Assembly: GCA_036365515.1 (NCBI GenBank)
Contig: CM070873.1
Span: 69,500,529-69,564,528, forward strand
Direction: 5' to 3'
From: Torymus aiolomorphi
Taxonomy: Eukaryota > Arthropoda > Insecta > Hymenoptera > Torymidae
DNA length: 64,000 nucleotides
Shown: positions 4,406 through 59,400 of the stretch, one piece after another
Numbering within the stretch: the stretch's first letter is position 1
How the letters are laid out: every line of letters starts with the position of its first letter
The notes under the pieces: model-generated
What the model saw: only the letters and a program-made list of their open reading frames with translations
Told to the model about the DNA's origin: nothing
Database searches by the model: none
Translations under genes and position numbers: made by a program

Positions 4406-4621
4406 ATATTTATCTCCTAATAGTTTTGAATTTTTAATCGGACTTCAACGAGCAAATCTCTTATGCGTTAGTCGAATGTCTATTCTCAAATCGAGAAAGG
4501 TAGCTTTTGTTTAAGCTTTCTCCTCTCTCGATAAGAATTTTTTGACAAACGGCGACACACATAAGAAACAAATTTTTTTAAAATGAATAACTATTAATTT
4601 CGGAATAAAATATAATATCGG

Positions 4622-4688
4622 GGAGTTTCGTCCTTGTCGTACTTGGTGGACTCGTCAGGAAGACCCAAGTAGACATATCTTCGACTCC
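4622..4688 (-). ncRNA. Type III hammerhead ribozyme, copy 1
   Basis: Read on the minus strand: stem III strand GGAGT then C17 (cleavage expected after GGAGTC), stem I GAAGA...TCTTC, core CTGACGA (consensus CUGANGA), stem II GTCC...GGAC, core GAAA, then stem III strand ACTCC. All invariant core bases are present. The open stem III makes it type III. Length 67 nt. Confidence 0.87.
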
Positions 4689-5069
4689 AAAATAATGAAA
4701 TTACTCTGAATTCTTATAGTGTGTAAGTTGTAATTTTATATGTGGGTTTGAAAAATTGGTTGCCATCTAGTGTCAAAAGGTTGGAACTAAGATTATACAA
4801 GAAAAGGCATTTTAGTGTCCGAATGCCATTTGATTCTAAATATGTTAAGCGCTCGTGGTGCTATCTTAATAGTTTTGAATTTTTAATCGGACTTCAACGA
4901 GCAAATCTCTTATGCGTTAGTCGAATGTCTATTCTCAAATCGAGAAAGGTAGCTTTTGTTTAAGCTTTCTCCTCTCTCGATAAGAATTTTTGACAAACGG
5001 CGACACACATAAGAAACAAATTTTTTTAAAATGAATAACTATTAATTTCGGAATAAAATATAATATCGG

Positions 5070-5136
5070 GGAGTTTCGTCCTTGTCGTACTTGGTGGACT
5101 CGTCAGGAAGACCCAAGTAGACATATCTTCGACTCC
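5070..5136 (-). ncRNA. Type III hammerhead ribozyme, copy 2
   Basis: Identical in layout to copy 1 and 448 bases to its right: GGAGTC, stem I GAAGA/TCTTC, CTGACGA, stem II GTCC/GGAC, GAAA, ACTCC. Cutting at copies 1 and 2 of a minus-strand transcript would release one 448-nt monomer. Confidence 0.87.
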
Positions 5137-5403
5137 AAAATAATGAAATTACTCTGAATTCTTATAGTGTGTAAGTTGTAATTTTATATGTGGGTTTGAA
5201 AAATTGGTTGCCATCTAGTGTCAAAAGGTTGGAACTAAGATTATACAAGAAAAGGCATTTTAGTGTCCGAATGCCATTTGATTCTAAATATGTTAAGCGC
5301 TCGTGGTGCTATCTTAATAGTTTTGAATTTTTAATCGGACTTCAACGAGCAAATCTCTTATGCGTTAGTCGAATGTCTATTCTCAAATCGAGAAAGGTAG
5401 CTT

Positions 5404-5457
5404 TGTCTACTTGGGTCTTCCTGACGAGTCCACCAAGTACGACAAGGACGAAACTCC
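5404..5457 (+). ncRNA. 5'-truncated hammerhead at the array junction
   Basis: Starts inside the stem I loop (TGTCTACTTGGG) and keeps CTGACGA, stem II GTCC/GGAC, GAAA and ACTCC, but lacks GGAGTC and the 5' strand of stem I. The loss coincides with the junction of the two arrays at 5402/5403, so it marks the 5' truncation point of the right array. Confidence 0.8.
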
Positions 5458-5839
5458 CCGATATTATATTTTATTCCGAAATTAATAGTTATTCATTTTA
5501 AAAAAATTTGTTTCTTATGTGTGTCGCCGTTTGTCAAAAAATTCTTATCGAGAGAGGAGAAAGCTTAAACAAAAGCTACCTTTCTCGATTTGAGAATAGA
5601 CATTCGACTAACGCATAAGAGATTTGCTCGTTGAAGTCCGATTAAAAATTCAAAACTATTAAGATAGCACCACGAGCGCTTAACATATTTAGAATCAAAT
5701 GGCATTCGGACACTAAAATGCCTTTTCTTGTATAATCTTAGTTCCAACCTTTTGACACTAGATGGCAACCAATTTTTCAAACCCACATATAAAATTACAA
5801 CTTACACACTATAAGAATTCAGAGTAATTTCATTATTTT

Positions 5840-5906
5840 GGAGTCGAAGATATGTCTACTTGGGTCTTCCTGACGAGTCCACCAAGTACGACAAGGACGA
5901 AACTCC
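5840..5906 (+). ncRNA. Type III hammerhead ribozyme, copy in right array
   Basis: Plus strand, 67 nt: GGAGTC with expected cleavage after 5845, stem I GAAGA/TCTTC, CTGACGA, stem II GTCC/GGAC, GAAA, ACTCC. Complete core, same as the two minus-strand copies. Confidence 0.87.
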
Positions 5907-6155
5907 CCGATATTATATTTTATTCCGAAATTAATAGTTATTCATTTTAAAAAAATTTGTTTCTTATGTGTGTCGCCGTTTGTCAAAAAATTCTTATCGA
6001 GAGAGGAGAAAGCTTAAACAAAAGCTACCTTTCTCGATTTGAGAATAGACATTCGACTAACGCATAAGAGATTTGCTCGTTGAAGTCCGATTAAAAATTC
6101 AAAACTATTAAGATAGCACCACGAGCGCTTAACATATTTAGAATATTTATCTCCT

Positions 6156-6666: not shown

Positions 6667-9600
6667 CTAAAAAGGAATTCGCATTTTTTCCAAATCATCT
6701 ATTTCACCAGTGTTAAATGGCGGTTCGTTATTTTGTGCCAGCCAAACATCACCAGACTTTCCTCTCTTTATGATTTCTACGATGGCTGAAGCCACGTTAT
6801 CTGGCCTATGGAAATAATTGAGACAGTGAAATCAGTGAAATTGTGTATTTTCTCAAAGATTATATTTTTGAAAGAATAAATTTTAACTTGAAATATATCC
6901 ATAATTAATTACATCAATAAAAAAGAGTATTTGACCGCGTAAAAGAAATTAAGATGATTAAAAAATCGCTTGAAGATACATCTCGATTATGACCGTTTTT
7001 GTTACTTTTTAAGATGGCAAATCTCAACGAATAATCTAGATGATTTTAATATCTTATTAATTATCGCCTTTGAAATATTTTTAAGATGATTTTCAGACAT
7101 ACGAAATTCATTATTTAATATCATTTTAAGATAAATTTGAGATGCTTTTGAAATGAATTTGAGACGAATTCGAGACGAAATTTCGTACTAAATTTAAAAT
7201 GATTTTTAGATTTTTTAAGATGATGATAAGATTAACTTGAGACAAACTTTTATGACAACTTTAAGATGTCTGATAAATGAATTGATTCGAAAATTTTTAA
7301 ATTTATTAAAAAATTTATTTAATCGATTCTTTAAACCCGATTAAGGACGTTCTTCGGGTCGAAACTGAAATTTTAGTTTTTATATTTTTAAATAATGTTT
7401 TATTAATTTTATAATCCAAAAGTAAGTACATGTAACAAATATATACTTAAAAGAACATAAGACAATTTTTTTCAGACAAATTCAGGCAATAGTCACTATG
7501 TTATTGTTACAATTAAAGACTTTTTCAATAAGTTTTTAAAATTTTTTTATTTTTTATCCGATCTTAACGAAATAGAGCTTATTTTGTTCGTTAAGAAATT
7601 TCAGGGAAGTATCGATGGGAAAATTTATGATACGAGTTACCAGTACGGCGCAATATCAATTTGTTTAAGAAAGTTTTGATGAAAACTTGACTTACTTTTC
7701 TACTTTTCTTAAACAAATTGATATTGCGCTGTACTGGTAACTCGTATCATAAATTTTCCCATCGATACTCCCCTTAAAATTTTTGAACGAACAAAATAAG
7801 CTTTATTTCGTTAAGATCGTATAAAAAATAAAAAAATTTAATGAACTTATTGAAGTTTTTGTCTTTAATTGTAACAAATCCATAGTGACTATTGCCTGAA
7901 TTTGTCTGAAAAAATTTGTCTTATGTTCTTTCAAGTATATATTTGTTACATCTAGGATTATCAAATTAATAAAACATTATATAAAAATATAAAAACTAAA
8001 ATTGCTGTTTCGACCCGGAGACAGTGCGCCGATATTGTAAGGTAGTCTGGCGCCTGCGCACTAGAGCTCTTCGCTGATTGGGCGCTCGGTAGGCGGCCGA
8101 AAAGTACGAGTGGTACTACTGTAGCGCGCGCGTTCAAACAACGAGCGGAGGACTTGGCGCGTGACACGAGGTCCACACATATAACGGAGTTACGTAGATG
8201 CGCGGTACTAAGCAAGACGAGAATTAAAATCATTTCTAAACCCAAGTAGGCGAGGGACGCAAGGTCCACGCATATTAGGAAATTACATAAAAATGCTACA
8301 ATAAGCAAAACAATTATTTAAATTTAAATAATTTTTAAACCAAAGTAGCCGGGGAAAACAAGGTCCACGCATATTAGGGAATAACATAGGAGTGCTACAA
8401 TAAGCAAAACAATTATTTAAATAATTTTTAAACCAAAGTAGCCGGGGGAAACAAGGTCCACGCATATTAGGGAATAACATAGGAGTGCCACGATAAGCAA
8501 AACAATGATTTAAATAATTTCTAAACTCAAGTAGTCGGGGGAAACGATGTCCCCGCATATTAGAAAATTACATAAACGTGGTACAAAATAAGCAAAACAA
8601 TTATTTAAATAATTTTTAAACCAAAGTAGCCGGGGGAAACAAGGTTCACGCATATTAGGGAATAACATAGGAGTGCTACGATAAGAAAAACAATGATTTA
8701 AATAATTTCTAAACTCAAGTAGCCGGGGGAAACGATGTTCCCGCATATTAGGAAATTACATGAAAGTGCGACAATAAGCAAAACAATTGTTTAAATAATT
8801 TTTAAACCAAAGTAGCTGGGGGAAACAAGGTCCACGCATATTAGGAAATTACATAAGTCCGAGAGATTCAGCCTTTAAATCACTCTTTAACAAGAGTCTA
8901 AACTTCAAGGCTTGCCTTACTTTTGGTATAAACCCCCTTAATCGAGTTTAAAGAAGTGATTAAAAAATTTTCTTTTTAAATTTTGGAATCAATTCATTTT
9001 TCAGACATCTTAAAGTTGTCATAAAAGTTTGTCTCAAATTAATCTTATCATCATCTTAAAAAATCTAAAAATCATCTTAAATTCAGTACGAAAGTTCGTC
9101 TCTAATTCGTCTCAAATTCATTTCAAAAGCATCTCAAATTTATCTTAAAATGATATTAAATAATGAATTTCGTATGTTTGAAAACCATTTTAAAAATGTT
9201 TTAAAAGGCCGATGATTAAAAAAATATTAAAATCATCTTGATTATTCGTTGAGATTTGTTATCTTAAAAAGTAGTAAAAACGGCCATAATCGAGACATAT
9301 CTTAAAGCGATCTTTTTGTGATCTCAACTTTTTTTACGCGGGTAACTTTCTGAATTTAATCATTTACTTAAGACGAAATATATTTTTAATGACTGATAAA
9401 TGCATGAATGAGCAATTAATTATCGAGATTATTAAAAGTGAATCTACCCTGGTAGAAAATTAATCATAAGTTGGCCAGAATATGGCTAAGCCATATGCTG
9501 GTTAAGCATATTCTGGCCAACTTATGGTTAATTTTCTACCAGGGTAGTCTTTTTTATGAGATTTGATATATATTATATATGAAAAAATATGCAAAGTTTT

Positions 9601-11439: not shown

Positions 11440-13580
11440 TCAGTGAAATGAAATATAGATTTGAAAAGTTTGTACAAAGATGAGTTAATAAGTAAAAACG
11501 TTGGTACAGCATTAACTGCTTGGTTCAAACTAAACAAACGTGATATAGATGCTCGCCAATATTTGTACATGGAAATACCTTATTATTATGTATTTGATGA
11601 CAAAAGTAAATCTTGGAATAAGAGGAAAAAATTTAATAAATCTATTTTAAGTAATGTATTTAGTAAGTCCAAAACAGCAGAAACGTTTCTTTTTAAGAAT
11701 GTTGTTATTGTACATCAAAGGAGCTACTTCGTTTGAAGATATAAGAACATATGACGAGATAACATATACAAGTTATTACCCTTTCGTAAATTATAAATGT
11801 TAATAACAGTTAATAACTGTCAAAAATTACTTAAAACAAAATGTAGGGTTTTGGACACCTTTTCAAATAGTTATTAGCAGTTTTAAACAGTTTGAAACAA
11901 TTTCAAATAATTTTGAATGATAGTTAAAAAAAATTAATAATTTGTAATTAATTAAACTATTATTAACTAATAATAATAATTAATAAATTAATAATTCATA
12001 ATTAATTAAACAAATGATATTTAAAAATTATATTTATGAATGATATTTAAGAAGAATTAATAATTTGTAATTAATTAATCTATTATTAAGTAATTAAACA
12101 ATAGTAATAATTATTAATTAATAATTTGTAATTAATTAAACTATTATTAACTATTAAAAAACTGTTCAAAACTGCTGTAAACTATTACAAACTGTTATAA
12201 ACAATTAATAACGTCCAAAATCCTACATTTTATAACATTTTTAAACAGTTTATAACTCTAACAGTTTTTAACTTTTTTTAACAAAAATATTTCCGCTAGG
12301 GTACGAAGCTTCTATAGCTAGAAATTTAATAGTAACCGATGAAGAGTGGGATAAATGTTTAAATGAATCATGTCAATATAGATTTCCTCGAAGTATATGC
12401 AATCTATTTGCCTACATATGTGTATTTCATAACTCTGTCAATTCGCGAGAATTGTTCAATAAATATAAAATTCATTTCTATCCTCCAAAAATGAATGAAG
12501 AAGAAGGTGAACGATATGCATTGAGTATAATAAATAGCATTTTAACTACACATGGATTTACTTTATCAGATTGTAATTTATCTATTTTACATGTCACTTA
12601 CATTTTTGAAGACGAAAATTCAGTTTTATATAATATTGACGAATCTAAAGTTATAAATGATAAAATTCAAAGTTTTACTGATGCTCAAATGATAATATTT
12701 AACACAGTTAGAAATGCAATAAATAAAGAATGCGATGATAAGTTTTTATTTGTAGATGGTCCTATGGAGGAAGCTGTAAAAGTTATTTATTGAATACGTT
12801 GCTTTTATATTGTAAAATTAACAATATTAATATTTTACCAGTTGCTTGGAGAGGAATAGCTGCCAATTTATTGCATGGAGGTAAAACAGTACATGTAAAT
12901 TACGATATTTACGACATTTAAATTACCTTTAAATGTTGATAATCAAAGTACATTAATATAATACCAAATAGCAAAGATGGAAAAAATATGAAACCAGTGA
13001 AAGTTATTATTTTGGATGAAATTACAATGACCTCAAAATATGCCTTTGAAGCTGTGGATCGTATGTTTAGAGACATTTGTAATAATAACAAAATTTTTTG
13101 GAGAAAAAGTCGTGATTGTTTCGGGCGATTTTCGGCAAACATTAACAATTGTAAGGCATAGAAATAGAATGCAAATAATTGAAAATTGTGTTAAAAACAG
13201 TAACATATGCAGTAATTGTAAAACTATGTCATTAAAAGATAACAAAAGTGTCATCGAAAAAGGTACAGAATTTAAAAAATGGCTTTTATCAATGGGTGAT
13301 AGTAAATTTTCTTCGAAATTTGAAAATGATAATAATGCTTTAAAAATTTGTCAAGAAATAATATCGAATAGTAATCTAATAGAAGAAATATATGGCAATA
13401 CAATCGACATTAATAATACAGAATTTTATGAAAGTATAATATTAGCTCCTAAAACTTCAGATGTATTAGAAATTAACAATAAAATATTACTCAAAATATC
13501 ATTAGCTATAAGCAGTAAGAATATAAAAGTACTGTTATATATAATACGAGCAGATTCATCTACATTATCGTATTAGGTGA
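11440..13580 (+). pseudogene. Helitron Pif1-like helicase remnant, interrupted by a MITE
   Basis: Conserved pieces of the helicase part of a Helitron Rep/Helicase run in order on plus. 11461-11736 contains LTAWFKLNKRDIDAR and YLYMEIPYYYVFDDKSKSW. 12302-12793 contains TDEEWDKCLNES, FPRSICNLFAYICVF and FLFVDGP, where the Walker A glycines and lysine should follow but a frame break comes instead. 12800-13030 contains WRGIAANLLHGGKT, then KVIILDEITMTSKYAFEAVDR (Walker B). 13080-13576 contains VVIVSGDFRQTLTIV and IILAPKTSDVLEINNKILLKI. Stops and frameshifts occur near 11737, 12794, 12920, 13085 and 13577. The Rep nuclease half was not found. Translated family patterns identify it well; it cannot be active. 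Confidence 0.82.
11779..12301. mobile_element. 523-bp MITE with TA target duplication inside the helicase relic
   Basis: Ends CCCTTTCG and CTAGGG with inverted subterminal sequence (AAAATGTAGGGTTTTGGAC on the left, GTCCAAAATCCTACATTTT on the right). TA flanks it at 11777-11778 and 12302-12303. Removing the element and one TA joins the helicase frame exactly (ACATATACAAGTTA then CGAAGCTTCT reads TYTSYYEAS), which proves the boundaries. The interior is AT-rich with repeated AATTAATAATT motifs and no gene. Confidence 0.85.
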
Positions 13581-13772: not shown

Positions 13773-14372
13773 TGAGGCGTTTCACGTCAACTGCCCCAGC
13801 GCCGCGCGCGAGCGCCAAATCGTGCTTCTTCTAACTCATGTTTATAATACTAAAATGTAACTAAAAAAATTGTTTCATAAGCGTTTCCGACGTATTTTTT
13901 CCTCAGCTTTCCAATGGTGTAGGCAGTTTTTCTGAAATTTTCCATTTTCACCTTCAAAAAGTACAAAACGTCTTATATCTCAAAAAGTGTATTTTTAATA
14001 TTTTTTTTTACCATTTACATCGAAACCTGAGCATTTTTTACATAGGAAATGATTTTTTTCATAATTTGCTCAGGATGTTTTCTTCGAGAAATAGTACGTG
14101 AAAGAGTAGTACAACGGCTCTCCTGCGCGCGGGACGTCGCGCGGAACGTCGCGTTAACTATGCCTGCCTCGCTACCTAATAATCTTTCATAATCTTTACC
14201 TTTTCCTTCGAATTCTTTGTAATGTAAGAATAATATTTTATTGGCTTTTTTATAAAAAAAAAACAGAGTTTCATAGCTAACAGCAATATAGTAACTATAC
14301 TAACGCTTTTTTCTCAGTGCAGATAATTTTTCTTTGTTTTTTCTAACAGTTTTTCTCGGGAAGATTTCCCAC

Positions 14373-16500: not shown

Positions 16501-17204
16501 CTGACATTCAAAACTTAAAGAGGTTTTTTGAGCTTCAATGTACTTTCATCAATTGGAATAATAGCATGGTATTGTAATGTGCCTGGTATGAATTTAGCCT
16601 TATCCAGTCTTGGTTTTAGTTTCAAGACAGTATCTTCATATGATTCTTTACTGCTATAAAAAAACTTTGGTTTCTTTGCAATAATCTTTAGCCCAGTTAT
16701 AAAGCTTTTCTGGCGTTAAAATATAATTATTAGGAGAAACTTGTAGACTCACTCGTTTTGCACCTCTTTTTAGGTTGGCGCCTATACCATCGCATGTACC
16801 TTTGCCATGCGCCGTGGCATAAAAATGCCACTCAGCTGGAACACCAAAATCTTTCTCATGAAAAAGAAGATTTAGAAAATTAGATTTATTTTTAAAATGC
16901 TGACCCGCTCCATCAGTCAAATAATAGACTTTTTTACTATGAATTTAATTTTGAGGTAAGATATTATAACTTTTTGATATTCATAAATGGCAACAGTATC
17001 ATGGTTTAGATTGTCGGAAATCACAGCAATGCTTACATGTTTAAGCTCTTCATTTTCTTTATAATACGCAACAACTGTAAAAACAGTTACTTGATTGTTG
17101 TTCCAGTGCAACGATTGTGTAGAATTTTTTGTTCTATCGATACTAACGGTCGTGCTGTCCAAGGAGTCAGGATGGTAAATGACAAGCAGAGTGTTTAGCT
17201 TAAT

Positions 17205-17247
17205 GTCGACGTTTCGGACTCTTTTTTTATTGAGTCCCTTCTCAAGA
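17205..17247 (-). ncRNA. Hammerhead-like motif at the 3' end of the Penelope element (degenerate)
   Basis: Minus strand: TTGAGAA, stem GGACTC / GAGTCC with an A-rich loop, then GAAACGTCGAC. This has the layout of the hammerhead cores known in Penelope-like elements, but two bases of the CUGANGA box differ (U for C, A for G), so activity is doubtful. Confidence 0.5.
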
Positions 17248-17621
17248 CTCTAATACAAAAATCATATATTATAAACTTTTGATACAAAAATGATAGAAAA
17301 ATTTATATACAAATTACACATAATTACTTACAAGAAACAATAATCTAACAAATTTTTTTGGTGGTCACAGCGATACCACCAGTCAATTGAAAGTAAATTC
17401 GCAACATTTTGGCCTTTATATACAGTGGAGAATTACATATGTATTTGTTACATTAATACAAGAAGCCAATCATACATTGTATAAGGCGGTGCTTATTAGT
17501 TGTACAGAGAGAGAGTATTAGACAAATATATGTCAAGGAGGTGTCAAAGAGACGGGGAGGGCCCAAGATGACTGTGATTTTATATTTTGGGCGTGGCCAT
17601 CTCTTTGTCTAACATACTCTC

Positions 17622-19017
17622 CTAATACCTTCTATCTTCTGTGATTGTGTTTGTAGGATATTGCTGTTGTAGAAAATGATTTTTATTGATAAAAGATTTA
17701 TATTCGAACCTGAGTGTTTTTGTATCTTGTTGATTATTAATATATTGTTTTTGCGCATGTATGAAAAGCATCTCAGCTAACTTTCGTTTAAACAAAAAAC
17801 GTTCATTATGTAAAATTTTCACTTTTTCAAAATTGAACTTATGTTCCGTTTCTTCCATATGAGTATAAATAGCAGACCCTCGATCATTATTTTCGCATTT
17901 TTTGAAATGTTCGTTAATTCTAATACCTAAGCGTCTTTCCGTTTGACCTACATATGATGCGTCACAATCGTTACATTTGATTTGGTAGACAACATTAGTT
18001 TTTTCCTCTTTCGTACTCACATCTTTACCTAATTTAATAAAGTAGTTTAATTTATTTATAGTGCTGTTAATGACCTGTGTGTTATATTTTCTAAAAAATC
18101 TTAAAATAATTGAATTGAGTTCATTCACGTATGGAATGACTATGTGAAATCTATTTTGTTCCAACTGTGGTATAGTTTTATTGGCGTAATTTATGCTTCT
18201 GAGTCTTATTTTTATATAGTTATTAATAAATTCTATAGGATAGTCATTCATAGTTAAAAACTGCTTAATTAATTTTAGGTTTACATTATGGAATGATGTG
18301 TGTGAAAGATTGATTGCTCTGTCTACAAGTGAGTAAATAATCGCTATTTTGTTTTTAATAGGATGTTGCGAGTTAAAATTTAGAAATCTACCCGAAAACG
18401 TTGGTTTTCTATACCAATTAGTTATTATTTTTTTGTTTTTTATTATAACTTCGATATCTAAAAAACTGATTTTATTATTACACGATGTTTCAGTCGTAAA
18501 CTGTAAGTTTTTGTCATAACTATTAAAAACGTCTCGTGTATAATTAATTAGGTTTCTTGGCACACATAACAAAATATCATCTACATAACGAAAATAAAAT
18601 ATACTATCGAAACAAAGTTTATTTAATGCATAAGATTCCAAATCTTGCATTATGATATCAGCTAGAATGGGGCTAATAGGATTTCCCATCGCTGAACCAA
18701 ACTTTTGTTTGTAAAATTGGTCGTTAAATTGAAAGTAGTTATTTTGTAGTATAAACTTTATTGATCCTATAAATTCACTGCAAGTTAAATTTTTATAATT
18801 ATATAATTGTGTCCAACGTTTTTCAATAGCTACACAAATTAAATATTCGGGTACATTTGTAAATAGACTGACCACATCCAAACTAATAATTTCAAAGCCA
18901 TCGGGAATAGTAATAACTTCTATTTTCTTTTTTAATTCGAGGCTGTTACTGACATGTGAAGACGGTCTTTTAAGATGTTTATATAAGAAGTTAGAAAAAA
19001 TCTTGGAAATATTGTAG
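17622..19017 (-). pseudogene. Penelope-like reverse transcriptase / GIY-YIG endonuclease (N-terminally truncated)
   Basis: About 464 residues are open to the stop at 17622. Reverse transcriptase motifs: block A IISLDVVSLFTNVP, block B GSAMGNPISPILADIIM, catalytic YVDD in FYFRYVDDILL, then FLDIEV. The C-terminal endonuclease has the CNDC pair typical of Penelope-like elements, then ASYVGQTERRLGIRINEH (a GIY-YIG variant with the conserved Arg) and the downstream Glu in KRKLAEMLFI. The N-terminal part of the reverse transcriptase is missing. The frame runs without a stop from transposase sequence (starting at 19376) into the retroelement, so an automatic prediction would give a 584-residue chimera; only residues from about 121 onward belong to the retroelement. 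Confidence 0.9.
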
Positions 19018-20221
19018 GTAGAATTTTGTATAACAAACGCATAATTTTCGGCAAAATCACAACACACAAGAAATTCTCCTTGTTGAAGGTTGTTTTTTAA
19101 GTCACTTACAAAAAGTGATTGATTCTTATCAAAAAAATCGTGAGATTTTAATTTTATCAATTTTTTTCCCAGTATGTCCATAAATTCATGAACATTTACA
19201 GTTTTAGAAGCTATTGTACACCGATCTGTTTCAAACCATGATTCATACTCTATTTGAAAAATATCACTTTCATCAAAACATTCAAGCAAATGTTTACGTA
19301 ATATGGACATATTGGGGCAATCTAAACAGTCACCCAAATAGCATCTATCGCGTGCATCATAATTGCTTGGATGCAATCATGGTAGTTTATAAGAGGCAAT
19401 CTAGTATCTTTTGTTAAATTTTCTAGATCCATAGCACTTAGCATGAGCTTTATGTTTTCGTGATGTACACACACGCATACATTATGCGTACCACTACTTC
19501 CAGCTAAAACACAATGTGGTGACCTCAATTGTGTAAATTTAGTAAAACCAATATTAACGTGTTCATTTTCTATTTTATATAAACTATACAGTTCATTTAA
19601 ATTACCAAGCAGTAATCTTTTTTGAACATGTTCTCTTTTGCCATTGCTTTGCTTAACAGATATGTAATCTTTGAAACCCGGCATAATTCGGCTTACATCA
19701 TCTTTTTCATAAAATGTTTTCACTGAATTTACAGTTTCAGCTAAAAGTAATTTGCCACTTTTATTAGCAGGTATTGAAAAAATTCCACTTTTAGCTACTA
19801 AATTTTTTGCTTCGCGAGCTTCCCGTTCAGTGCAAGCGAATTCTCGCATTAAGTCCCTACGAGACCAAAACTCAGGCGCAAGAGTTAGTAACTGAATTCT
19901 CTCTTGCTTATTTGTTGATTCTGAAATTTTTTTCTTTATTTGTTCAAGAACTGCAACACCAGCTTTGTGATACTCATCGTTACACACTGTTTTAGCTTTT
20001 TTAGCATCAGCTGGAGGTAAACTTGATTTATGTTTGTAAATTTGGCGTTGACAGTTAGAACAAATTTTTGCTTTTTCTGGTAATAAGGAATATGCGCTTC
20101 TTAAAGGTCTTGGAAAGTCGATCAAATCTTTTATTTTATGTGAAGGGTGATCATTTTTATTTAAAGAATTTATCCATTTCAATTTCCAAGTTGAATCCAT
20201 TTTAGTTGCTACAATAAACAA

Positions 20222-20429: not shown

Positions 20430-20817
20430 ATGAATCATGCGGTGCCGCGCGACGTCCCGCCCGCAGGAGAGCCGTTGCGCTACTCTTTCGCGTTCTATTT
20501 CTCGAAGAAAACATCTTGTGCAAATTATGAAAAAAATCATTGCCTATGTAAAAAATGCTCAGGTTTCGATCTAAATGGTCAAAAAAAAATATGAAAAATA
20601 CAGTTTTTGAGATATAAGACGTTTTGTACTTTTTGAAGATGAAAATGGAAAATTTCGAAAAAACTGCCTACATCATTGGAAAGCTGAAGAAAAAATACGT
20701 CGAAAACGCTTATGAAACAATTTTTTTAGTTACATTTGTGTATCATAAACATGAGTTAGAAATAGCACGATTTGGCGCTCACGCGCGGCGCTGGGGCAGT
20801 TGATGTGAAGCGCCTCA

Positions 20818-23769: not shown

Positions 23770-24935
23770 TAAGGAAAACATTTTTATATTTCATAAATTA
23801 ATTTCTCAAAAAATATTTTATTTATCGACTTGAAATTTTAACCACTTATAACAATCAGTGAAGACTATATTTGGTTAAAATTTCAAGTGATTATCTTCAT
23901 TTCTTTTCTAGAAAAAAAATATTTTTGAAAAAAATCACATTTTTTTTCGGACGCGATAACAGGAGTAAAAATCAACCAATCGTCTTGAAATTTGGCACAG
24001 AGATAGCTTTTTTATATCTTCGAACCGAGTTCGTTGCCCAAAAAAATCGGTCAATTACGATTAAAGATATTTGAGGTTAAAAATTTTTCTTTTTAATTTT
24101 CGAATTGCGTTTTTTCAGAGGATTGTTGATTTATCGACCTAAAATTTTAACCACTTATAACACTCATTGAAGACTATATTTGGTAAAAATTCCAAGTGAT
24201 TATTTTCATTTGTTTCAGAGAAATAAAATATTTTTGAAAACAAGGGAATTTTCTTTCGGATACGTTAACGGGAGTAAAAGTCAACCAATCGTCTTGAAAT
24301 TTGGCACAGAGACTGATTTTTTTTTTTATATCTTCGAACCGAGTTTGTTGCCAAAAAAAATCGATCAATTATGATTAAAGATATTTGAGGCTAAAAATTT
24401 TTTTAATTTCCGAATTGAGTTTTTTCAGAGAATTGTTGATTTATCGACCTAAAATTTTAATCACTTATAACCCCCTCATTGAAGACTATATTTGGTTAAA
24501 ATTTAGAATGATTATCTTCATTTTATTCATAGAAAAAATATTTTTGAATAGAAGTGAATTTTTTTTTCTTTCGGACACGATAAAAGGAGTAAAAGTCAAA
24601 CAATCGTCTTGAAATTTGGCACATAGACAGCTTTCTTATATCTTCGAACCGAGTTCATTGCTCAAAAAAAATTAGTAAATTAATAAAAAGATATTTGAGG
24701 TTAAAATTTTTTTTTTAATTTTCTAATTGTGTTTTCTCAGAAAATTGTTGATTTATTGACCTAAAATTTTAACCATTTATAATACTCATTGAGGATTATA
24801 TTTGGTTAAAATTTAAAGTGATTATCTTCATTTGCTTTCGAGAAAGAAAAATTTTTGGAAAAAAGTGCTTTTTTCTTTTGGACACGATAACAGGAGTAAA
24901 AGTCAACCAATCGTATTGAAATTTGGCAAATATAA
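23770..24935 (+). repeat. Tandem array of a 305-bp unit, about 4 copies
   Basis: Blocks containing TTGATTTATCGACCTAAAAT, GAAGACTATATTTGGT and CAACCAATCGTCTTGAAATT recur at about 23.82, 24.13, 24.43 and 24.74 kb, giving a period of about 305-310 bp. Similarity between copies is moderate. Short reading frames over the array (for example MVKISSDYLHFF and MVKIPSDYFHLF) recur only because the unit recurs. Confidence 0.75.
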
Positions 24936-29509: not shown

Positions 29510-29663
29510 GGCATGGTGTGGTTTGTGCACATAAGAATTATGCACATATTTATTGTGCACACTTTAGCATTGGTGTATATCTATATCTATGTGTATACTC
29601 CAATGCTAAAGTGTGCACAATAAATATGTGCATAATTCTTATGTGCACAAACCACACCATGCC
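29510..29663. mobile_element. 154-bp perfect palindromic MITE with 8-bp target duplication
   Basis: GGCATGGTGTGGTTTGTGCA begins an arm of about 65 bp that is repeated in perfect inversion after a 23-bp loop of TATATCTA type. CAACCTAC flanks it at 29502-29509 and 29664-29671. An 8-bp duplication fits hAT-type mobilisation. Arm identity suggests recent insertion or gene conversion. Confidence 0.85.
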
Positions 29664-56400: not shown

Positions 56401-59400
56401 TCACAATACCCTTGTTCTTATGAATCAATGTGTACATAAAAATAACAAAAATCTTTGTAAACAAATTGTTACTAATGTAACACTTCTATTCATAAAAAAT
56501 TATTACGAGATTTGTAAGATAAAACCCTTCAGAAAATAGTACTTTTCGATACACTTGTGATAAATATGATTCTAGCTCGAGTGTGGTTTGTCGCCCGAGC
56601 GAAGCCAGACACACACTCGAGCCAGAATCATATTTATCACAAGTATCGAACTAGTACATTTCGACACGGGTGGGGAAGTCGATTATTTAGCTGGTGTGAC
56701 TTTTTGCACGAGCGAAGCGAGTGCGAAAAAGCCACACCACCTAAATAATCGACTTACGCACTAGTTTCGAACGGTATTTTATACCACGAGCGCCGAAAAA
56801 TCATATCAAAGTTGTGATTTTGAGGTTAGAGTGGTATAAATTATTTTATGACACTTCGTGTGTTAAGTAACATTTTTGAGCATTCTTGTTTTAGCAAGTG
56901 AGCGTAAAATTTCTTTTAAAACGTGTGCTGTACTTATAGTTAAACATTAAAATTTTGACAGAGAAATATATTTTTAAAATCTCTGAGATAAAACAACAAT
57001 ATCGTGAAAAATAAAATACAAAACCCACCTCTATTCGCTCCTCCTTGAGATCGACCTGCAGAGCGAGCTGCTCCCGCAGCAGCACGTCCGGGTAATGCGT
57101 CTTGTCGAAGGTCGCCTCGAGCTGCTCGAGCTGTTCCTCCGTGAAGATGGTTCTGTGTCGGCGCTTCCGCTTGGCCATGGGACCAACGCCTGGCCCACCG
57201 CTGGGACTCAGTTGATACGGATGCGCGCCGTGGTAAAAGGCGCCCGGCTGGCCGTGCAGCGAGACGCCCGCCGCGGCCATCGCCGCCACGTAGCCGCCCG
57301 GGTACAGGCCTGGGTACGCCGCCGCTGGAATAGGAAGAGAATCGGATGGTTATTATTTGAGTACTTGAATTGGTTTGATGAGGAGATGGTGGTGGGTGGT
57401 GCGTAGAGTAGAATGTGGAGTTGATGCGATGTGTGTAGAAATAATTCAGTTTGAAGTTATGAATAAAATTGAAGCATTAGATAGAACGTTAAGTAAATTT
57501 ATCGAAGTTCATTGACGTTATTTTAATATATTATACATTTAAAATCTTAATACAATTGCCTAAGATAAGAGACCTACTGTGCTGATATATAGATTAATCG
57601 GGCTACAATAACTAGAATAAAGCAATAGTGATTTGAATAAGAGAGCAGCATCGTAAAAGCCAGTTGGAATCTTTTAGTAACTATTTTCAAATCAACCGAC
57701 TCTTATCTTATAATAGTATCATCATCTAAATACCAAACCTACATGATTTCTATAAACAACATTTATGATATAAATCCACAATGAATTATTCATCGTCCCT
57801 ATAAAACTCTTAAGAAAATCAAAACCTCGTCATCTTTCAAAATCCACAATATACATTACTTCTTCGTACCCCGTTCCGACCCCTTGAAAAAAGAAAAAGA
57901 CGAGGCCACCTACGAGCGCCGTGGCGCGAATTCCCAGGCGCCTCTAATAGCAGCTAAGGGCGCGCCGCAAAGAAAAATATCGAGCGAGCGAGCGAGAGGG
58001 AAAACCTCCGTAGTCGTGCCGCACGCAGGGCGATCTCTGGGGACGTTTTACACGAAAAATCTCGAGGCCATAAAAGCAGCTTAAGCATAATGTTTTTCTC
58101 GCCTGCGCTCTCTCTCTCTCTCTCTCGGCATTGAGAATATTTTTCTACTACTTCCTCGGCTTTGCTCTCGCGCGCGATATTTCACGTCGGATTTTGCCGG
58201 CGCTCGAGCGCGCGGCAGCCGTTGGAGCGCGACAAACGCGGATTCGAGATTTCCTCGCTCTCGCGCGCGTTTTCGCTCCCTTTCGTTTGCTTGCGCGAGT
58301 TGGGAGCTGCGTGGTATTATGTAATTTTTCCGCAAAGAGATGAAGTGATTATAGGTTTGAATATATTTGTGTCGAGAGTAAATTTTACGATAAGAGAGGG
58401 ATTGTTTATTTGGTTATAATATAAGAAAATATTTAAAGATTTTTTTTATTAAAATAAGCATCGATGATAGTTTATACTTTTCAATAGTGGTTATAAACTG
58501 CGTCAGTTTATTTAAATTGGTAATCAAGGATGCCATATTAATTCGTGATATTAGAAGCCAAAGGAGTTATGTATGCAGAATTTTGAAATCGTGTATTCGT
58601 TTTGATTACTGAACATTATGAGTAAATAGCTCAAAACATCGAAAGCATAAATTAATACTGCGAACAAATAATATCATTAATCAGACAAAGAGGAAGCCAT
58701 ATATGACCAAGTAAAATTTTAACGATATAACATGAGATTTCGTAAAATCATAAAAATCTTGTCCCCGGTAACCTAAACACCTCTACAACCATGTAACACT
58801 ATTTCCTCCCCCACCTCATCTAACATCAACCTCTTATCATCTCTTAAAAAAGTGATAAATGAAATCTGTCATCATAATAAGACTGATTTGATTGGCTGTT
58901 AAATACAAGATGGTGATATGGCATGGAAATTTGAAATTTAAAATTTGATCTTGTACTTTTGTTAAAAGTGTAATCTTAAAATTGATTTAATTTGAAAGCA
59001 TTCTGAACAGAAGCATAAAGTAAGCGAAGCGCGCGTAGATCTTGCTAGTATCATTAAAAACACATTCCTCCCGCGTTCCCGCGACATTTAGCTATACACT
59101 CGACCTTCTTGCGTCACGATCCTACCAGCGCATTAGGTTTTCTCGTCCCTCTCAGACGCGCAAAAAGAATTGACGAACCTGCGCGGGCGAGAGATTTTTC
59201 TCCAGCGCACTCGCCGCAAATCCCCGGGGATTTCGCGCAAATCCTTTCTTTACTCGCGGCGCGCGATGCAAAGGCGCCTTTCGGAAGAAATCGCGCGCGC
59301 GGCTCAAGGAATTTTGGGCGCCCGCCGGCTTTGCTATTAAAATGCGCGCGCACGCTTTTTTACACGGAGTGTTTTAAGAAGATTTGTCGACCGAGTGACG

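Follow-up and report, generated by a model that had tools for sequence, protein, structure and literature searches.

A candidate type III, Penelope-mobilised class of hammerhead retrozyme-like element in the genome of Torymus aiolomorphi

Metazoan retrozymes are described as repeats of 150–450 bp that carry type I hammerhead ribozymes and give circular RNAs of ~170–400 nt (Cervera and de la Pena 2020, PMC7229834). The same ribozyme type and circle sizes are given for printed animal retrozymes in the relevant passages of PMC7761336 and PMC11722881. The mover of animal retrozymes has the status of a proposal, a LINE or a Penelope-like element (PLE), in the sections on mobility of PMC7229834 (2020) and PMC11722881 (2024). 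Plant LTR retrozymes (PMC4918200, as described in parts of PMC7229834 and PMC7761336) form circles of ~600–800 nt and contain LTRs, a primer-binding site and 4-bp target duplications. Type III hammerheads with paired loops are reported in PMC7936874 for delta-like RNAs as well as for the genomes of termites, dipterans and D. pseudoobscura; the portion of that paper on its structure search gives no type III hammerhead for hymenopterans. Insect elements with type III hammerheads are mentioned as 'in preparation' in a passage of PMC7761336.

In the description of copy structure in PMC3846280, published PLE copies have pseudo-LTRs arranged head-to-head, one of which may carry a 31-bp tail, and target duplications of 8–10 bp or none. 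At A+T-rich targets, a PLE protein from a lizard cleaves the two DNA strands and extends them, and it starts inside its RNA at two sites that bound a 30–40-bp tail, as outlined in the main account of PMC11167929.

The window, the whole 64,000-nucleotide stretch of Torymus aiolomorphi DNA analysed here, contains an insertion (positions 4419–6142) that consists of two head-to-head arms of a 448-nt unit, with hammerheads on the minus strand and then on the plus strand. The 13-bp direct repeat that the sequence-only reading had placed around the whole insertion is found at both borders as an exact target-site duplication with no strand assigned (ATATTTATCTCCT at 4406–4418 and 6143–6155). According to unit comparison, the left arm (4419–5404, sense on the minus strand) covers ~2.2 turns of the unit between an inner end at unit position 175 and an outer 'short' end at ~264. 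The right arm (5405–6142, sense on the plus strand) covers ~1.65 turns between an inner end at ~8 and an outer 'tail' end at ~296–298. The outer ends share microhomology with the duplication, 1 nt (T) in the left arm and 2 nt (AT) in the right arm. The tail (6111–6142, plus strand) is defined by arm comparison as the ~33–34 nt by which the right arm exceeds the left-arm outer end, and contains CCACGAGCGCTTAA at 6119–6132, a motif spotted by eye. Units of 448–449 bp had been reported earlier and were recovered as a 448-nt unit whose passes differ only in an A5/A6 run. The simple tandem layout that accompanied them does not hold, because the two arms are inverted relative to each other, with hammerheads on opposite strands.

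The unit has a G+C content of 33.9% and contains no long reading frame when read round the circle, with longest stop-free stretches of 55 codons in the sense and 78 codons in the antisense direction. The predicted fold of its sense circle is tight (z −5.5 relative to 60 shuffles). The ~3.9 unit passes in the window copy exhibit no substitutions, and the A run has a length of five once and six three times. The substitution bound of ~0.23%, obtained from 1279 redundant sites, therefore identifies the window copy as young. Matches to the MIR8007 and MIR1435 models in the Rfam search fall over the insertion, and we think that they stem from its own inverted repeat. Self-primed fold-back was considered as the cause of the inversion in the window copy and rejected, because the left arm (987 nt) exceeds the right-arm template on offer and the right arm extends ~33–34 nt beyond the left-arm end.

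The hammerheads of the insertion comprise three complete 67-nt type III sequences and one truncated copy, and all four were located as listed in the sequence-only reading, with all core bases and the named stems present in the complete copies. Two complete copies are found on the minus strand (4622–4688 and 5070–5136, with predicted cuts after bases 4683 and 5131 read on that strand) and one on the plus strand (5840–5906, with a predicted cut after base 5845). The truncated copy at the right-arm inner end (5405–5457, plus strand) is without the stem III 5′ strand and the stem I 5′ strand. The type III assignment is based on the CUGANGA and GAAA boxes, a NUH cut site (predicted as GUC/GAAGA), three stems and an open stem III, all of which are present. 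A covariance-model search of the window, suggested earlier as a check, was borne out in part: the Rfam type III model RF00008 matched at 33.6 bits (E of 6.9e-5 for a search space of 2 kb and of 0.0022 for 64 kb), and neither the window hammerheads nor anything else in the window reached its gathering score of 48.5 bits. Both loops of the window hammerhead are longer than those of the model. A descriptor composed of the core and stems matched three times in the window and never in 300 mononucleotide shuffles of it. The sole type I hammerhead match in the Rfam search of the window (15.3 bits, E of 5.2) overlaps the truncated copy, and the opposite strand of the insertion gave no match to a hammerhead or another ribozyme family in that search.

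Loops 1 and 2 of the window hammerhead are complementary. UACUUGG in one loop can pair with CCAAGUA in the other, and the pairing extends to 11 bp with one bulge; shuffles equalled this complementarity in 6 of 20000 cases and, in a second run, in 7 of 20000. The lowest-energy structure predicted without pseudoknots forms an alternative hairpin at the expense of stems I and II (−19.8 versus −10.4 kcal/mol for the ribozyme fold), and hammerhead activity therefore cannot be assumed. In the window's family, the core and stems are intact in 200 of 215 ungapped hammerhead copies, and the 7-bp core of the loop 1–loop 2 helix is kept in 209 of the 215. Ten sites have a minor state of at least 20%: nine are located beyond the hammerhead and one, site 64, borders stem III on its outer side, a distribution that amounts to a weak test of purifying selection on the ribozyme. 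IMG/VR contained no exact matches to the hammerhead stretch or to a third pattern, and its five matches to a shorter pattern included no hammerhead as judged by eye. A search for similar DNA in genome_contigs gave no matches.

Several other features are observed in the window. Tandem arrays at 8209–8856 (93 bp) and 23820–24928 (~310 bp) contain no hammerhead match (Rfam, E up to 10). A repeat of ~376 bp occurs as an inverted pair (13773–14147 and 20442–20817, 93% identical), and a near-perfect palindrome of ~140 bp (29516–29657, MITE-like) matches several microRNA models on both strands. A PIF1-like helicase fragment (13040–13576, plus strand) is presumably Helitron-like, and a homeodomain exon (56891–57289, minus strand) resembles, we assume, goosecoid.

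The window's own 1.08-Gb assembly (G000) was searched with the whole insertion as the query, which yielded 347 matches (395 candidates, 34 scored). Thirty-four loci were examined, consisting of the window and 33 loci fetched from the matches listed; exact-pattern matches indicate further loci of the family beyond these. The head-to-head order is found in 31 of the 34 loci, a share that is biased upward because the loci are the best-scoring matches of a head-to-head query. The other three consist of three plus-strand pieces (L026) or one arm each (L030 and L034). Strand order was also assessed independently of this query, using the first 100 listed matches for each exact pattern, all on contig C1. 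Clusters with at least two matches numbered 13 and 11 for two patterns, and 7 and 4 of them contained matches on both strands; all 11 both-strand clusters run minus then plus. One very long head-to-head copy (C1:6355012-6370809) contains 26 listed minus core matches followed by 7 plus matches.

Exact boundary repeats of at least 10 bp flank 27 of the 31 head-to-head loci (mode 13 bp, with exactly 13 bp in 13 loci), compared with 11 of 930 control pairings in which the left and right flank came from different loci. The exceptions are L014 (4 bp) and L038 (5 bp), at which a clear duplication is absent, L037 (8 bp), and L021, which has an assembly gap by its left end. The duplicated targets of the window's family have a G+C content of 12%. 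Loci with a duplication of at least 8 bp number 28, and each of them has one outer end below unit 280 and the other above it. The lower ends cluster at unit ~250–270 (one at 232) and the higher ends at ~290–297 (one at 314), and the probability of finding one of each end in 28 of 28 loci is 3.7e-9 under independent choice at even odds. The side of the tail varies (16 left and 13 right among 29 classified loci). No consistent poly(A) tail is present at the outer ends, though several ends adjoin A/T runs of the target. Judged by the alignment borders, the arms meet cleanly at some inner junctions, and at others they overlap by as much as 3 nt or are separated by as much as 15 nt. The genome search and end comparison thus confirm the dispersed family with target duplications that had been anticipated, with two preferred ends, and the family is not a satellite confined to one array. 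The target duplications and the mostly intact type III hammerheads likewise uphold the proposal that the window copy is a young, retroposed, retrozyme-like insertion.

The arms also provide information about their template. Arms longer than one unit account for 50 of the 58 classified and reach 6076 nt. Such arms cannot come from a cleaved linear monomer, and the template was therefore circular or an uncleaved multimer. The mean difference between arms is 0.32% within a locus (29 pairs, of which 14 are identical) and 1.49% between loci (1919 pairs), with pairs sharing fewer than 200 sites excluded, and passes inside a single arm differ by 0.47%. Three same-locus piece pairs, in L026, L037 and L016, differ by more than 1%. 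Because same-locus arms are closer to each other than between-locus arms, each insertion mostly copied one variant. In our reading, a single circle was copied by two reverse transcriptases, one per target end, an arrangement that would explain why the two ends use different start sites. Two circles from one source locus could also have provided the template.

Further hammerhead families are present in the genome. A search of G000 with RF00008 at the default cut-off (148516 candidates, 68 scored) listed two loci, both below the gathering score; the window's family was not among the matches listed. At one of the two loci (L067) the tandem unit measures ~353 nt and the left arm is inverted; the other (L068) has hammerhead copies ~850 bp apart. 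An exact core pattern with a 4-bp stem II gave 921 matches in G000 with a 14-nt loop 2, several families together, and 381 matches with a loop 2 of 15–34 nt, counts that omit the short loop 2 class CTGANGAGTCCN{4,13}GGACGAAAC; reversed-pattern controls gave 0 for both loop-2 classes. Families D (L069, 870 bp) and E (L070, 602 bp), each read by eye at one locus, adopt the head-to-head order with a 13-bp duplication and have tails of ~36 and ~35 nt, respectively. The unit of family E measures 457 bp in array L073, and C1:148217937-148238970 is a tandem array of the 457-bp family E with 45 listed matches on one strand. The hammerheads of families D and E are 78–85% identical to that of the window's family, with short blocks in common; the remainder of the unit is largely different. 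As judged by eye, the three families also have a tail motif near ACGAGYGYNTAA in common (D versus E, 16 nt, E of 0.28).

Loop 1 pairs with loop 2 over 10–11 bp in all five families (−14.7 to −18.9 kcal/mol). None of 20 between-family loop swaps is as strong (−2.1 to −12.8 kcal/mol), a comparison in which each family is represented by one copy and families A, D and E are related, so that the swaps are not independent. The copies used were the L067 copies with the longer loop 2 for family B (the copy found by RF00008 has a shorter loop), the first copy of L068 for family C, and array L073 for family E (the L070 copies carry loop changes). We take this covariation to favour a real loop–loop helix, which may serve as a pseudoknot or as a switch.

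PLEs of the same genome were analysed for comparison. A 5′-truncated PLE fragment on the minus strand of the window (17121–19021) has a 10-bp border repeat, GTAGAATTTT, and its scores are just below the Pfam cut-offs for RVT_1 (27.7 versus 29.6 bits) and GIY-YIG (22.5 versus 22.6 bits). A 584-codon ORF (17622–19376) consists of the PLE RT/GIY-YIG part and ~114 upstream codons that are unmatched in most other copies. Among the best 120 of 490 protein matches, every organism-named row is hymenopteran (ants and parasitoid wasps). Among the 76 matches to this ORF in G000 (26408 candidates, 75 scored), several carry an open 951-codon frame.

Twenty PLE loci (L047–L066) were cut out for end analysis, and head-to-head arms are found within the stretch analysed in 10 of them. 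Most outer 3′ ends are located at positions 126–131 or 163–172 of the reference copy, ~40 nt apart; deviating ends occur in L058 (108), L064 (123, with the other arm ending at 2017) and L052 (3271). The two complete head-to-head PLEs with a clear duplication (L060 and L063) each have one end of each kind and a 13-bp duplication, and no duplication was found at L064, also head-to-head. Single-arm copies have duplications of 10, 11, 14 and 11 bp. The overall span of PLE duplications is 10–14 bp as read directly from the flanks; the mismatched-flank control covered the retrozyme loci. In the two PLE families examined, the start regions show no significant similarity to that of the retrozyme (equalled by 64 of 500 shuffles), the tail motif ACGAGYG does not occur, and no sequence of the pseudo-LTR or start region is common to the 448-nt element. 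Both PLE families (L049, L071 and L072) carry a hammerhead-like CTTGAGAAGG...GAAACGTCGAC with a non-canonical CUGANGA box, and GCAGCTGTCGTTAGAATC near the tail is common to both. The 448-nt element exhibits the head-to-head arrangement, the 30–40-nt tail on one end and the short target duplications of a PLE-like copy, and this geometry, common to the element and the PLEs of the genome, forms the core of the Penelope case.

The same ribozyme circle could instead have been copied by a LINE-type (non-LTR) reverse transcriptase, with the inversion resulting from ordinary twin priming, which yields the same head-to-head topology; 13-bp duplications are also LINE-like. Twin priming is seen in a minority of L1 copies and its second sites are scattered, unlike the inversion in 31 of 34 loci and the two preferred start sites, one per end in 28 of 28 loci, observed here. 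A LINE is further disfavoured by outer ends without a consistent poly(A) tail and by the same geometry in the PLEs of the genome. This mover, which is left open in print in the discussion of mobility in PMC7229834, appears improbable.

An endogenised viroid-like or delta-like RNA would generate inverted arms through RNA-to-RNA rolling-circle replication in both polarities. Type III hammerheads with loop 1–loop 2 pairing do occur in the toad and termite delta-like RNAs covered in PMC7936874, and the tight fold of the sense circle agrees with such an origin. However, ribozymes in both polarities, expected of a viroid-like or delta-like replicon, were not found, as the opposite strand has no hammerhead match, and there is no long reading frame. 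Both arms begin at the same sense-strand sites, and a sense template therefore suffices. The many genomic copies, with duplications at 27 of 31 head-to-head loci and hundreds of pattern matches, also oppose this origin, which is very unlikely. Satellite DNA could spread at the DNA level through unequal crossing-over or reinsertion of circular DNA, with the hammerheads as passengers, and long arrays such as C1:148217937-148238970 and C1:6355012-6370809 (33 listed matches in the latter) are compatible with this process. The dispersed copies with duplications, the two preferred end sites, the minus-then-plus order of all 11 both-strand clusters among the first-listed matches and the intact state of 200 of 215 ungapped hammerheads are not; the satellite explanation is already disfavoured and can be given hardly any weight.

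With considerable confidence, we regard the insertion as a young, non-autonomous, non-coding retrozyme-like copy of a hammerhead RNA circle that was produced by a PLE reverse transcriptase/endonuclease. Self-cleavage, RNA circularity and the action of PLE enzymes in trans are deduced from sequence and would combine as follows. A multimeric transcript would be cut by its own type III hammerheads into 448-nt monomers, which a host ligase would close into RNA circles. The PLE reverse transcriptase/endonuclease would bind a circle and cut A+T-rich DNA with a stagger of ~13 bp, and reverse transcription would start from both target 3′ ends on that circle at neighbouring internal sites (unit ~262 and ~296). 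Each copy would extend round the circular template over anything from part of a turn to many turns, and the two would be joined on meeting, which would yield a head-to-head pair whose outer ends are of the short kind on one side and of the tail kind on the other.

The element resembles metazoan non-LTR retrozymes, as characterised in the main text of PMC7229834, in its non-coding hammerhead units of low G+C content, its dispersed occurrence as dimers to multimers, its duplications of more than 4 bp and its long arrays. It differs from them in the ribozyme and unit size (type III and 448–457 nt, compared with type I and 170–400-nt circles) and in its head-to-head arms and PLE-type ends. Like plant LTR retrozymes in the summaries of PMC7229834 and PMC7761336, it is non-autonomous, contains a type III hammerhead and presumably has a circular RNA, but its duplications have a mode of 13 bp instead of 4 bp. 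Without the type I hammerhead of metazoan retrozymes and the 4-bp duplication of plant retrozymes, the element is therefore called retrozyme-like. The hammerheads presented in PMC7936874 are likewise of type III, with enlarged hairpins and Watson–Crick pairing between loops 1 and 2, but those detailed there pair over ~4 bases (GCCR/YGGC) rather than 10–11 bp and belong to delta-like RNAs or, in termites, to isolated genomic motifs rather than to retroposed units. The head-to-head order, the single end with a 30–40-bp tail, the short duplications and the A+T-rich targets are shared with PLEs as portrayed in parts of PMC3846280 and PMC11167929; unlike PLEs, the element has no ORF and no sequence in common with the two PLE families examined, and its hammerhead is of type III, whereas the one described for PLEs is a minimal type I.

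A possibly undescribed lineage had been proposed on account of the long unit and the open stem III. Of these two traits, the unit length of 448 nt is only slightly above the animal sizes published in the size survey of PMC7229834, and having stem III open is simply what defines type III. What distinguishes the element is its type III ribozyme, in which loops 1 and 2 are complementary, together with its Penelope-type ends. Among the papers listed for the open literature, a scope that takes in few subscription journals or preprints, none was recognised by title or abstract as describing a retrozyme with head-to-head copies or Penelope-type ends. On these sequence features, we call it a candidate new, type III, Penelope-mobilised class of retrozyme-like element. 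A broader proposal, for which we see about equal reason for and against, is that several type III circle families with 10–11-bp complementary loops parasitise Penelope enzymes and form a distinct class of animal mobile RNA. Two reverse transcriptases would act on each circle at start sites that are never identical, making the pair of tail and short ends obligatory, and the loop helix may act as a switch that puts the RNA either in a cutting fold or in a closed one, in which the circle is protected.

The stereotyped ends of some thirty insertions tie a ribozyme-bearing unit to Penelope-type integration, a link that is testable with one purified protein and one RNA. These insertions expose Penelope priming without an ORF, with two start sites, one per target end, and mostly one template variant. 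Moreover, they place large numbers of loop-paired type III hammerheads in an animal genome, alongside the ribozymes found in delta-like agents, and point to a machine that may move hammerhead elements in animals.
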